DNA of 64,000 nucleotides from positions 124,001 through 188,000 of the forward strand of contig NZ_WESC01000003.1 in assembly GCF_009184905.1 (NCBI RefSeq), in the 5' to 3' direction. The stretch is from Parvibaculum sedimenti (GTDB lineage Bacteria; Pseudomonadota; Alphaproteobacteria; Parvibaculales; Parvibaculaceae). The translations under genes were made by a program, and so were the position numbers. The notes below the pieces were generated by a model. The model was given only the letters and a program-made list of their open reading frames with translations. It was not told the DNA's origin and ran no database searches. Positions 5,751 to 43,968 of the stretch are shown here, in pieces. Each line of letters begins with the position of its first letter. Within the stretch, counting starts at the first letter, position 1.

Positions 5751-6073
5751 GGCCGCGCCTCGCACTCGATAGCGAGCCATCGCCCATGCCCATCGGGATC
5801 GTGGCGCCCCGAAATATCGAGCACCCGCCCGCGCCAGCGCAGCCGCATCTCCGCCGTCACATCATCACGGTAGCGGATGACGACGCGGTAAGGCTCTCGC
5901 GCCTCTTCGCGCTCGGTTGCGGCGAGCGTCGTCCCCTTGAACGAGATGACTTCCGCCCGGACGGTTGCCAATGCGCTCCAGCCAACGGACGCGCCGCCTG
6001 CACCATCCGCCGTCCGCACCGGCGTCTCTATGGTCACGCGCTCGCGCAGCCTGCCCGGATCGCGCCCGCTCAA
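5747..6073 (-). CDS. GTA g7-like head-tail adaptor (TTG start)
   Basis: About 108 residues of the phage head-tail joining/adaptor family. Recognisable parts are LRERVTIETPVRTADGAGG, WSALATVRAEVIS and YRVVIRYRDDVT, with VLDISG near the end. The start is a TTG at 6073, chosen because GGAGG lies eight bases upstream and because it overlaps the connector stop as TTGA; longer starts would run far into the previous gene. The frame upstream is open by chance. The stop overlaps the next ATG. Confidence 0.8.
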   Translation of the reverse strand: MSGRDPGRLRERVTIETPVRTADGAGGASVGWSALATVRAEVISFKGTTLAATEREEAREPYRVVIRYRDDVTAEMRLRWRGRVLDISGRHDPDGHGRWLAIECEARP

Positions 6074-40804: not shown

Positions 40805-41926
40805 TCACGCAGCCTTGTCGTCGGGCCAACGGCCGACATAGCGCGACTGTGGCCGGATGAGCCTGCCGACGCGCTCCTGCTCGATCACATGAGCGCTCCA
40901 GCCCGCGACGCGCGACATGCCGAACACGGCGGTGACGGCGACGCGCGGAATGCCCAGCGCCTCGAGCAGGACGGCGGTGTAGTACTCCATATTGGTGTCG
41001 AGCCGCTGATTGGGCTTCGCGGCCTTCAACGCCGCAAGTGCTGCCGTCTCGACATCGCGGGCAAAGCGCACACGCTCATTGCCATTGGTGAGCAGCATCA
41101 CCGCCTTGTTGAAGACATCGGCGCGGGGATCGCGCACCTTGTAGACACGATGGCCAAAGCCCATCAACCGCTCGCCCTTCGCAATCTCCCGGACAAGCCA
41201 CGCGTCGATGTTTTCGCGCGTACCGATATCATCCAGCATGTCGAGCACATGGCCCGGCGCGCCGCCATGAAGCGGCCCCTTCAACGCGCAGAAGGCGCCG
41301 ACAACAGCCGAGATCATGCCTGCCCGCGTCGAGGCGATCACACGCGCCGTGAAGGTCGAGGCATTCATGCCATGATCAGTGACGGTAACGAGATAGGCAT
41401 TGAGCGCTCTTACCTCCGCTTCACTCGCGGGCGCGCCCCTCAGCATGCGGATGAAATCGGCGGCGTGGCCCACCTCCGCGTCCGGCGCGATGGCGTCCTT
41501 GCCTTCGTCCCGGCGGCACAGCGCGGCGATGAAGACAGGCGCGCTGCCAACCGTCCTGATATGCGCCGCGAGATCTCCCTCGTCCGAAAGCAGCGAGAAC
41601 CCCGTCCTCAACCCCTCGGTCACGCTGAGCCCCCTGGTCGCTGCCAGAAGCGCCGGAACAAGCCGGAAGGCCTCCATGCGCGCCCGGCCGAGATCGCGGC
41701 GGACATCGTCGCCGGAGGGTGCAGGCTCAAGCCCCGCCACCCGCCAGAGCAACGCGACCGCGCCCTCGAAGTCGTAAGCCGCAACCAGATCCTCGACATC
41801 GTGACCGGCGATGATGAGCCGCCCGGCTTCGCCGTCGACATGGCTCAAGGGAGTCTCGGCGGCGACCACATTGTCGAGGCCGAAGGCGCTCGCCTTGCTC
41901 ACATCTGAAAAATGACCATTGGACAT
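40805..41926 (-). CDS. Citrate/methylcitrate synthase paralogue
   Basis: A 373-residue citrate synthase family enzyme. Catalytic His are in GPLHGGAPGH and GFGHRVYKVRDPRA. The catalytic Asp position of the family (NVDFY) is NMEYY here, so Glu314 replaces Asp. It condenses acetyl-CoA or propionyl-CoA with oxaloacetate, activity not certain given the change. Start ATG 41926, GAGG six bases upstream; it may be longer at 41965. It faces the HTH-fused paralogue across a 111-base gap with a palindrome. Confidence 0.8.
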   Translation of the reverse strand: MSNGHFSDVSKASAFGLDNVVAAETPLSHVDGEAGRLIIAGHDVEDLVAAYDFEGAVALLWRVAGLEPAPSGDDVRRDLGRARMEAFRLVPALLAATRGLSVTEGLRTGFSLLSDEGDLAAHIRTVGSAPVFIAALCRRDEGKDAIAPDAEVGHAADFIRMLRGAPASEAEVRALNAYLVTVTDHGMNASTFTARVIASTRAGMISAVVGAFCALKGPLHGGAPGHVLDMLDDIGTRENIDAWLVREIAKGERLMGFGHRVYKVRDPRADVFNKAVMLLTNGNERVRFARDVETAALAALKAAKPNQRLDTNMEYYTAVLLEALGIPRVAVTAVFGMSRVAGWSAHVIEQERVGRLIRPQSRYVGRWPDDKAA

Positions 41927-42002
41927 CTCACACCTCATTTCCGCAGACCCATGAGCGGGCCTCATGCGTCAAAGGTGTTGCGCCGCACAAATATCGTCAA
42001 TC

Positions 42003-42019
42003 TTGATTAAGCTAATCAA
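42003..42019. promoter_or_regulatory. Palindrome between divergent citrate synthase paralogues
   Basis: TTGATTA-AGC-TAATCAA, a perfect 7-bp inverted repeat, overlapping a partial TTGATT -35 for the plus-strand gene. A TATAAA box follows at 42024. TCAATCT occurs on both sides as a direct repeat. A likely operator; the HTH domain of the neighbour is the first candidate to bind it. Confidence 0.55.
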
Positions 42020-42037
42020 TCTATATAAAAACAACAC

Positions 42038-43294
42038 ATGCCAAAAGCCGCTCCACCGCCCGAAAACCTCTACCTCTCCGCAAAGGAGGCCGCCGCCGAA
42101 CTCGGCGTCAGCCTGGCGACCCTCTACGCCTATGTAAGCCGCGACATGATCCGATCGGAGCCGGTGCCCGACAGCCGGGCCAAGCGATACCGGGCCGAGG
42201 ATGTGCGGGCGCTGAAACAGCGCCGCGTCGCGGGCAGCGGCCCGACCTCACCCCAATTCGAAGGCGGACGGGACGCGCTCACGGCCGCGCTCAATTACGG
42301 CGGCGCGCCGGTCCTCGACTCCGCGATCACCCTCATTGCCGACGGCAAGCTCCATTACCGCGGCTCGAACGCAATGGCGCTTGCCCGCAGCTCGAGCCTC
42401 GAGCAGGTGGCCGCCCTGCTTTGGGGTTGCCGCGACGTGCAGCCCTTCACCCGCGATGCCGTGCCGCACATGACGCCGCTGCTTGAAAAGTTGGCGGCCG
42501 ACCTTTCCGACGCGCCCCGCATCGAGCGATGCCTCTCGCTGCTGCCTCTCGCGGGGCTCGACGATCCATCCGTCTACAACATGACGGATCGGGGCCTTGC
42601 CGCCACCGGCGCGCGGCTCCTGCGCTTCGTCGCCTCAGTCATTGCTGGCGTCGCGCCTTCCGCCGATCCGGTGCACGAAGTCCTTGCCCGTTCGCTCACC
42701 TTTGGCGACCGCCGCGCAGCGGAGCTGATCCGCGCCGCTCTGGTCCTCTGCGCCGACCACGAGCTCAACGCCTCCGCCTTCACCGTGCGCTGCGTCGCGG
42801 GCACGGGCGCCACGCTTTACGCCGCCGTGCAGGCGGGCATATGCGCCGCGCAAGGCCCGCGCCACGGCGCCTTCACCAGCCGCGTTGAAAGCTTCCTCAC
42901 CGACATCGCCCATCGCCAGGACATTGAAGACGCGGTTCTGAACCGACTGCGCAATGGCGACCTGGTACCGGGCTTCGGTCATCCGCTCTATCCGGATGGC
43001 GACCCCCGCGCGTCGACTCTGCTCGATCTCATGCGCGCCAATCACGGAGACGACCCGGCCTTCCTCCGCGTTCAACGCATTGTCAACGTCATGGCGGAGG
43101 CGGGTGGCGTCCACCCGAATATCGACTTCGCAGTCGGCGCACTCAGTGTCACACTGAGAATGATGCCAGGAACAGGCCTTGCAATCTTCGTCCTTGGCCG
43201 CACGGCGGGCTGGATCGGCCATGCGATCGAACAATATCGTTCAGGCCAGATGATCAGGCCACGCGCCCGCTACACGGGAGAAGCGCCAAAATGA
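42038..43294 (+). CDS. HTH-fused citrate synthase paralogue
   Basis: A 418-residue fusion. Residues 11-65 are an excisionase/MerR-like HTH (YLSAKEAAAELGVSLATLYAYVSR, in parts, and KRYRAEDVRALKQRR). The rest is a citrate synthase core with the catalytic His276 (GPRHGAF), His315 (GFGHPLYPDGDPRA) and Asp363 (NIDF), so the active site looks intact. No ribosome site is visible; a TATAAA box lies nine bases before the ATG, so the mRNA may be leaderless. It likely binds DNA and could sense acyl-CoA or oxaloacetate. The next gene overlaps its stop. Confidence 0.85.
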   Translation: MPKAAPPPENLYLSAKEAAAELGVSLATLYAYVSRDMIRSEPVPDSRAKRYRAEDVRALKQRRVAGSGPTSPQFEGGRDALTAALNYGGAPVLDSAITLIADGKLHYRGSNAMALARSSSLEQVAALLWGCRDVQPFTRDAVPHMTPLLEKLAADLSDAPRIERCLSLLPLAGLDDPSVYNMTDRGLAATGARLLRFVASVIAGVAPSADPVHEVLARSLTFGDRRAAELIRAALVLCADHELNASAFTVRCVAGTGATLYAAVQAGICAAQGPRHGAFTSRVESFLTDIAHRQDIEDAVLNRLRNGDLVPGFGHPLYPDGDPRASTLLDLMRANHGDDPAFLRVQRIVNVMAEAGGVHPNIDFAVGALSVTLRMMPGTGLAIFVLGRTAGWIGHAIEQYRSGQMIRPRARYTGEAPK

Positions 43295-43968
43295 CCAAGA
43301 CGGCTCTCCTTGCCGGCGCCACCGGCCTCGTCGGCGGCATCCTGCTGAAGCGCCTGCTCGATGCCCCCGCCTATGACCGCGTGATCGCGGTCACCCGGCG
43401 CAGCCTCGGCTTCTCGCATCCGAAGCTCACCGAGATCGTCACCGATTTCGACACGCTGGAACTCGCCCTCGCAAAATCCGCCGTCCATGCCGACGACGCC
43501 TTCTGCGCATTGGGCACAACAATCAGAAAAGCCGGCAGCCAGCCCGCCTTCCACCGCGTCGATTTCGATTATGTTGTGAATTTCGCCCGCGCTGCGAAGG
43601 CGTCCGGCGCGACACGCTTTCTCCTCGTCTCAGCCATCGGCGCGAGCGCAGGTTCGACGATTTTCTATTCGCGCGTGAAAGGCGAGGCGGAAGAAGCGGC
43701 GAGCGCGCTCGGCTTCGAGGCAACACATATCTTCCGGCCCGGCCTCATCCTCGGCGACCGCGCCGAGCGCCGCCCCGCCGAAGCCGCCATGATGGCCGCA
43801 ATGCCATTGCTCAATCCGCTGCTCATCGGCCCCACGAAGATCTATCGCGGCATTCCTGCTGACACGATAGCAGCGGCCATGATTGCAGCCGCAGCCACGT
43901 CGACCACGGGACGTATTATCCACACCTATGCGTCGATGAGCGCCCTCACCACTGACAGAGAGCATTGA
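43291..43968 (+). CDS. NAD(P)-binding Rossmann protein (HTATIP2-like)
   Basis: A 225-residue short-chain-like protein with a Rossmann GATGLVGG motif at residues 9-16 and a YSRVKGEAE motif (Tyr/Lys pair) near residue 130. Resembles NmrA/HTATIP2-type NAD(P)-binding proteins, which are often regulators or oxidoreductases. The ATG overlaps the citrate synthase stop by four bases, so the two are coexpressed. Confidence 0.75.
   Translation: MTKTALLAGATGLVGGILLKRLLDAPAYDRVIAVTRRSLGFSHPKLTEIVTDFDTLELALAKSAVHADDAFCALGTTIRKAGSQPAFHRVDFDYVVNFARAAKASGATRFLLVSAIGASAGSTIFYSRVKGEAEEAASALGFEATHIFRPGLILGDRAERRPAEAAMMAAMPLLNPLLIGPTKIYRGIPADTIAAAMIAAAATSTTGRIIHTYASMSALTTDREH

Follow-up and report, generated by a model that had tools for sequence, protein, structure and literature searches.

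The 64,000-nucleotide stretch of DNA analysed here (contig NZ_WESC01000003.1 of Parvibaculum sedimenti, positions 124,001 to 188,000; hereafter the window) carries two divergent citrate synthase homologs, one of which is fused to a helix-turn-helix (HTH) domain. This fused protein, denoted HTH-CS, is probably the cognate transcription factor of a conserved operator that lies between the two genes. As such, it would be autoregulated, would control an acyl-CoA-using enzyme, and would represent a one-component trigger enzyme. Sequence comparison establishes that there is such an operator and that it is tied to HTH-CS, which classes of genes it marks, and that both domains of the protein are conserved.

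HTH-citrate synthase and its putative operator

The gene for HTH-CS (42038-43294, plus strand) encodes 418 amino acids and is predicted to specify a one-component regulator. Its MerR/excisionase-like HTH domain (residues 12-63; 42071-42226, plus strand) contains the motif TLYAYVSR and scores 28.5 bits against Pfam HTH_17 (cut-off 27). The protein falls under the cut-offs of the Pfam models for the MerR family (MerR_1, 16.4 versus 21.6 bits; MerR, 14.1 versus 28.2 bits). The citrate synthase domain (residues 89-409; 42302-43264, plus strand) scores 210.3 bits against Pfam Citrate_synt (PF00285; cut-off 27) and includes His241, His276, His315, Arg324, Asp363, Arg388, and Arg407. It reaches no NCBIfam cut-off for citrate or methylcitrate synthases, the best being TIGR01800 at 156 versus 421 bits. 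Based on the positions that we take to apply in the pig enzyme, His276, His315, and Asp363 stand where catalytic residues are expected. The sequence-only reading of this DNA had described a 418-residue protein that combines an HTH with a citrate synthase core containing these three residues, and the Pfam domains and alignment agree with that description.

The facing gene (hereafter the partner; 40805-41926, minus strand) encodes a CitA-type citrate synthase of 373 amino acids from an ATG at 41926, with an alternative longer start possible at 41965 (386 amino acids), and is the presumed target of HTH-CS. The two starts are separated by 111 bases (41927-42037). Within this gap, the perfect palindrome TTGATTA-AGC-TAATCAA that had been noticed between the divergent paralogs is exact at 42003-42019. 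Comparison of the upstream regions of relatives reveals that the conserved unit exceeds the palindrome and takes the form TCAATnTTGATT-N5-AATCAAT (41997-42020), represented on the plus strand of the window by TCAATCTTGATT-AAGCT-AATCAAT. Intergenic sequence beyond this operator mostly drifts among relatives and is far less conserved. In the organism's own genome (G000; 3.70 Mb in 41 contigs), the pattern with a spacer of 5 is present in a single copy at up to three mismatches, and a reversed control pattern yielded 0 matches.

To evaluate how widely the operator accompanies HTH-CS, loci were compiled from 61 genomes (with the full protein in 35 of the 37 that belong to the family), from the best 80 named loci of 486 relatives, and from 49 of 385 genomes of the class. 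Class genomes were screened at E <= 1e-30, and 7 of the 49 were dropped because the match started at residues 84-105 and thus lacked the HTH. Collapsing 26 repeats reduced 147 loci to 121 with distinct HTH-CS proteins. The operator was identified at up to three mismatches within 400 bp upstream of HTH-CS in 107 of the 121 (58 perfect, 33 with one mismatch, 11 with two, and 5 with three), compared to 0 of 2,420 mononucleotide shuffles, a control that kept base content only. The sequence-only reading had named absence of the palindrome from relatives with the HTH fusion as a refutation of its idea, and this result does not refute it.

The operator is found in at least five phyla, as labeled by record title, with many of the records being metagenome-assembled genomes. 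Among the best 80 named loci of the 486 relatives, it was present in Alphaproteobacteria (38 of 39), Chloroflexota (8 of 16), Actinomycetota (10 of 10), Acidobacteriota (7 of 7), Betaproteobacteria (4 of 4), Poribacteria (2 of 2), one locus labeled Bacteroidetes, and one from an unspecified proteobacterium. The spacer between half-sites is 5 in 78 of the 107 loci and 4 in the other 29; at the named loci, alpha- and betaproteobacteria have a spacer of 5 and the others a spacer of 4. In one genome (G126), the half-sites are perfect and the spacer is 6. Six plasmid loci were opened; the operator is perfect in Deinococcus (L205), Chelatococcus (L206), and Agrobacterium fabrum C58 (pAt; L204), has one mismatch in Azospirillum (L208), and has two in Ensifer (L209). 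Among 46 genomes scanned, 27 of the 28 from the genus and family have the operator at HTH-CS, the exception (G021) being 88% complete and showing no full HTH-CS. Seven of the 18 genomes from outside the family match at up to two mismatches, and only G037 and G040 do so at HTH-CS. Several Parvibaculum loci, such as L010, L013, and L052, have an extra TTGATT to the left of the operator, resulting in four alternating half-sites; this extra element is absent from the window.

Both domains of HTH-CS are conserved as well. In an alignment of 119 sequences (L145 and L148 were too short and were dropped), residues L22, Y30, Y32, S34, R35, and Y51 do not vary within the HTH, and R47 hardly does. Within the citrate synthase domain, H241, H276, R324, D363, R388, and R407 are likewise invariant. 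Position 315 is His in 117 of the 119 and Gln in L062 and L076. The near-invariance of HTH and catalytic residues across these proteins suggests that the recognition helix has been conserved together with the operator, and the active site with them. In a tree of 50 sequences (26 HTH-CS, 23 partners, and the third citrate synthase homolog of the genome), the HTH-CS proteins are grouped on one side of a fully supported branch (100/100). Partners likewise fall on one side of a fully supported branch, and the long branch of the third homolog leaves the rooting unsure. Within the genome, that third homolog (G000:C3) best matches the profile for citrate synthase (474 bits).

The tie between operator and HTH-CS is also specific. 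In the 385 class genomes, all 17 sites that match TCAATNTTGATTN6ATCAAT perfectly are directly upstream of HTH-CS and oriented like it, and we therefore rejected the idea that the palindrome is a promoter of general use or the site of a global regulator. A site with at most one mismatch is directly upstream in 26 of 41 class genomes with a full HTH-CS and is present anywhere in 15 of 343 without it (Fisher p = 1.3e-19); of the 15 HTH-CS genomes without such a site, several have weaker versions. There were 17 one-mismatch sites in the class that are not upstream of HTH-CS. One of these (G182, L188) turned out to be the truncated start of an HTH-CS gene, and none of the 11 inspected among the other 16 is near a gene for a citrate synthase, HMGL-like enzyme, or CoA-transferase.

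A further scan of 21 genomes at one mismatch returned 23 sites, with two genomes yielding no match. Twelve of these sites comprise six at HTH-CS, three with the letters of a known HTH-CS operator, two beside CoA-transferases (L227 and L237), and one (L235) that has no such neighbor. The other 11 comprise ten that are letter-identical to a known HTH-CS operator and one (L248) in a coding frame. One of the six sites at HTH-CS belongs to a second paralog: Paraburkholderia sp. C35, from which L118 comes, encodes a second, diverged HTH-citrate synthase (L236:304-1518) with a one-mismatch operator at its start.

Genes marked by the operator

The gene that most often faces HTH-CS is that of the CitA-type synthase, which is divergent within 700 bp in 92 of the 121 loci. 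The partner in the window scores 393.8 bits against the NCBIfam model for CitA-type citrate synthase (NF009005), above the cut-off of 332. Its best match in the PDB is 2c6x ('citrate synthase 1'), and it also matches 6wgy ('putative citrate synthase 2'); we take these to be the Bacillus and mycobacterial CitA, respectively. Where usual citrate synthases have an Asp as catalytic residue, the partner has Glu (N-x-E-Y), as do 93 of 94 aligned partners, with Asp in the remaining one. In four PDB alignments of the partner, this position is Glu in 2c6x, 8gmf, and 8gll and Asp in 6abx. The canonical triad is therefore found in HTH-CS and not in the partner. Homologs of the partner were detected at E <= 1e-60 in 37 of the 385 class genomes, and at E <= 1e-90 all 30 of 30 class genomes have HTH-CS adjoining on the same contig. 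In G254, HTH-CS and a partner homolog are on separate contigs, and six weaker homologs (41-45% identity) are from class genomes without HTH-CS.

The operator is kept when genes unrelated to the partner face HTH-CS. An HMGL-like enzyme (a relative of homocitrate and isopropylmalate synthases) takes this position in L093, L094, L107, and L205, and a family III CoA-transferase does so in L040, L106, L108, L118, L120, and L208. Other genes facing HTH-CS across a kept operator include a cupin (L083) and single cases in L103 and L142. Family III CoA-transferases face HTH-CS in Paraburkholderia and Herbaspirillum. In L091, L095, and L104, a cupin-like open reading frame (24-37 bits against the cupin of L083) separates HTH-CS from the partner. 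Profiles were compared to ask whether the HMGL-like target may be a Re-citrate synthase: for the enzymes of L107, L094, and L205 the best profile is homocitrate synthase NifV, below its cut-off (150 versus 463 bits for L107), and the best PDB match of L107 is a homocitrate synthase.

The operator also marks genes of the same classes away from HTH-CS. It is unlinked in five genomes with a single HTH-CS gene (G420, G421, G422, G423, and G018). Perfect unlinked operators precede a CitA-type synthase in G420 and G421, an HMGL-like enzyme in G422, and a family III CoA-transferase in G423; in these four genomes HTH-CS is on another contig and has no site of its own nearby. In G018, which belongs to the genus of the window, a one-mismatch operator is just upstream of a family III CoA-transferase (L222:1655-3043) located ~26 kb from HTH-CS, which also has its own operator. 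At unlinked sites the TCAATnTTGATT arm points to the target, as it does in divergent pairs. Collectively, the site looks like the operator of a regulator because it is kept by non-homologous and unlinked targets and is rarely seen without HTH-CS.

Predicted promoter architecture of the divergent genes

Read on the minus strand, the left operator arm is TTGAC, such that a candidate TTGACA-like -35 element of the facing gene is built into it. In the window, this is the candidate -35 TTGACG of the putative leftward promoter (41995-42000, minus strand), followed 17 bp away by a candidate -10 (41972-41977, minus strand) that is not TATAAT-like. Comparison of locus groups, which were set by hand, indicated that a TATAAT-like element follows at loci with a spacer of 4 (at 17 bp in 19 of 29; 4.1 matches versus 2.9 in shuffles). 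Among 37 Parvibaculaceae-like loci, the hexamer 17 bp away has 2.3 matches to TATAAT versus 2.6 in shuffles, and four of its bases (AA..TG on the plus strand) are invariant. The other 41 loci with a spacer of 5 are hardly above shuffles (2.9 versus 2.7). Placement of the leftward -10 at 17 bp from TTGAC is thus only partly borne out. The operator probably overlaps both the target's -35 and the HTH-CS promoter region, and autorepression is therefore predicted. For the target gene, both repression and upstream activation are possible.

No ribosome site is evident for HTH-CS since there is no G in the 20 bases before its ATG. TATAAA, a candidate -10 of the HTH-CS promoter, is at 42024-42029 (plus strand). 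The sequence-only reading had pointed to both of these features, and both stand; the distance to the ATG, which it gave as nine bases, is eight. With starts chosen by rule, a Shine-Dalgarno-like motif precedes 19 of 94 HTH-CS starts compared to 66 of 88 partner starts, and the ATG of HTH-CS is within a few bases of the operator at several loci. The missing Shine-Dalgarno motif, the TATAAA eight bases before the ATG, and the scarcity of such motifs across the family are compatible with a leaderless HTH-CS message. On plasmid At of A. fabrum C58, the annotated starts of the pair overlap (L204:5887-7164 and L204:4788-5888), and, judging by the perfect operator at 5948, HTH-CS appears to start further downstream than annotated.

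Downstream of HTH-CS, a gene for an SDR-like NAD(P)-binding protein (43291-43968, plus strand) overlaps its stop codon (ATGA) and is likely part of the same operon. Resemblance to this protein was detected in 42 open reading frames of the fetched loci, with repeats counted and some not directly downstream of HTH-CS.

Proposed regulation by HTH-CS, alternatives, and significance

HTH-CS is predicted to bind TCAATnTTGATT-N4/5-AATCAAT. Because half-sites recur, the bound form is probably dimeric or of higher order. Binding would limit transcription of its own gene, since the site overlaps the HTH-CS promoter region, and would control the facing gene. The state of ligand or turnover most likely sets DNA binding, with acyl-CoA and/or oxaloacetate acting through a citrate synthase fold that keeps the residues for binding them. 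Likely targets use acyl-CoA, namely the CitA-type citrate synthase here and an HMGL-like enzyme or family III CoA-transferase elsewhere. We favor a model in which both promoters would be repressed and then relieved by acyl-CoA plus oxaloacetate. Comparison strongly supports the idea, raised from the window alone, that the palindrome belongs to the HTH protein and that this protein controls the divergent gene: across phyla the site accompanies HTH-CS, it survives a change of the divergent gene, and in genomes where HTH-CS is found by itself it marks the same target classes elsewhere. As judged from its sequence, HTH-CS joins an enzyme fold with an intact active site to a DNA-binding domain, as expected of a trigger enzyme, and comparative genomics supplies the putative cognate operator and target genes.

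Several observations weigh against this interpretation. Fourteen of the 121 HTH-CS loci have no operator at up to three mismatches within 400 bp. Four of them (L036, L136, L140, and L148) have versions with four mismatches, one (L145) is cut by a contig end, two (L075 and L077) have the operator ~1.2 kb further upstream, and four (L072, L100, L112, and L115) have it elsewhere in the genome; the remaining three (L078, L092, and L097) have no convincing operator in a genome scan made with spacer 4 only. No operator was found at the Caballeronia plasmid locus (L207), and the class genomes G388 and G311 show none. The genomes of the spacer-4 scan also hold further sites with one or two mismatches, and those that were inspected (L211, L218, and L221) have no gene of a target class. 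Finally, the reversed control pattern matched once each in G418 and G420.

We tentatively propose, as a reading that may well prove incorrect, that an active citrate (or methylcitrate-like) synthase doubles as an ancient, cross-phylum transcription factor with few targets. Its turnover would report the supply of acyl-CoA and oxaloacetate and, via one operator kept nearly the same in several phyla, switch enzymes whose chemistry is related even where they are not homologous (CitA-type synthase, HMGL-like enzyme, and CoA-transferase). It is possible, if somewhat doubtful, that HTH-CS is instead a sensor only, binding DNA and ligand through a citrate synthase fold that does not turn over. Such a protein need not keep the His/His/Asp set found in 117 of 119 sequences, nor the Asp363, His276, Arg324, Arg388, and Arg407 found in all, although ligand binding alone could account for part of this conservation. 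Consistent with a sensor are the Gln at His315 in 2 of 119, the scores of HTH-CS under all NCBIfam citrate synthase cut-offs, and the precedent of BzdR, whose shikimate kinase-like domain is reported to have lost activity (PMC3602430).

Regulation by a hetero-oligomer of both citrate synthases, where the partner protein rather than a small ligand sets DNA binding as product-protein feedback, would fit the adjacency of all 30 close partners in the class to HTH-CS and the divergent partner at 92 of 121 loci. We consider it improbable, given that loci facing an HMGL-like enzyme or CoA-transferase keep the operator and have no CitA-type partner in the fetched stretch. It is very unlikely that the HTH is vestigial, with HTH-CS an ordinary enzyme and the palindrome another regulator's site or merely a conserved promoter: overlap with a TTGACA-like -35 could explain part of the conservation, but HTH residues are invariant across phyla, perfect sites in the class occur only with HTH-CS, sequence outside the operator is far less conserved, and the site persists with non-homologous targets and marks targets away from HTH-CS.

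Regulation by HTH-CS as a trigger enzyme would have parallels in known systems, the closest in logic being other trigger enzymes and BzdR. BirA, NadR, and PutA are trigger enzymes that, like HTH-CS, combine a catalytic with a dedicated DNA-binding domain, and they are autoregulated and have few targets; their folds are unrelated to that of HTH-CS, whose enzymatic activity is putative. None of these three is known to be a citrate synthase. In Bacillus subtilis, the LysR-type regulator CitR controls the adjacent minor citrate synthase CitA, which is presumably 2c6x, the best PDB match of the partner. Both systems thus pair a CitA-type minor citrate synthase with a dedicated regulator encoded alongside, whereas in HTH-CS the regulator is itself a citrate synthase homolog. 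HTH-CS resembles MerR/excisionase proteins in scoring above the HTH_17 cut-off and in a motif that recalls the helix-turn-helix and wing of MerR, but its effector domain is an enzyme fold and the MerR_1 and MerR models score below cut-off. BzdR is likewise a one-component regulator, in which an N-terminal DNA-binding domain is joined to an effector domain derived from an enzyme; it is reported to sense benzoyl-CoA, and its shikimate kinase-like domain to have lost enzymatic activity (PMC3602430). HTH-CS, in contrast, retains its catalytic residues, and it differs in having the fold of a citrate synthase and an HTH of the MerR/excisionase type.

A full-text literature search, in which titles and abstract openings were considered and most subscription papers were outside coverage, gave no description of an HTH-fused citrate synthase among the matches listed. 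A Collimonas 'citrate synthase family protein' is among strongly changed genes in a table of one report and is not called a regulator in that table (PMC12542777). Gene records for HTH-CS read 'citrate synthase family protein', 'citrate synthase', or 'citrate/2-methylcitrate synthase'. If our interpretation is correct, genes recorded only as 'citrate synthase family protein' would gain a function, and HTH-CS would be a natural candidate for an acyl-CoA/oxaloacetate biosensor. It would also represent a direct enzyme-to-promoter switch in central carbon metabolism, in which a citrate synthase homolog reads its own substrates. With the site, protein, and targets defined closely enough for direct experiments, HTH-CS is a promising and testable case of an enzyme that doubles as a gene switch.

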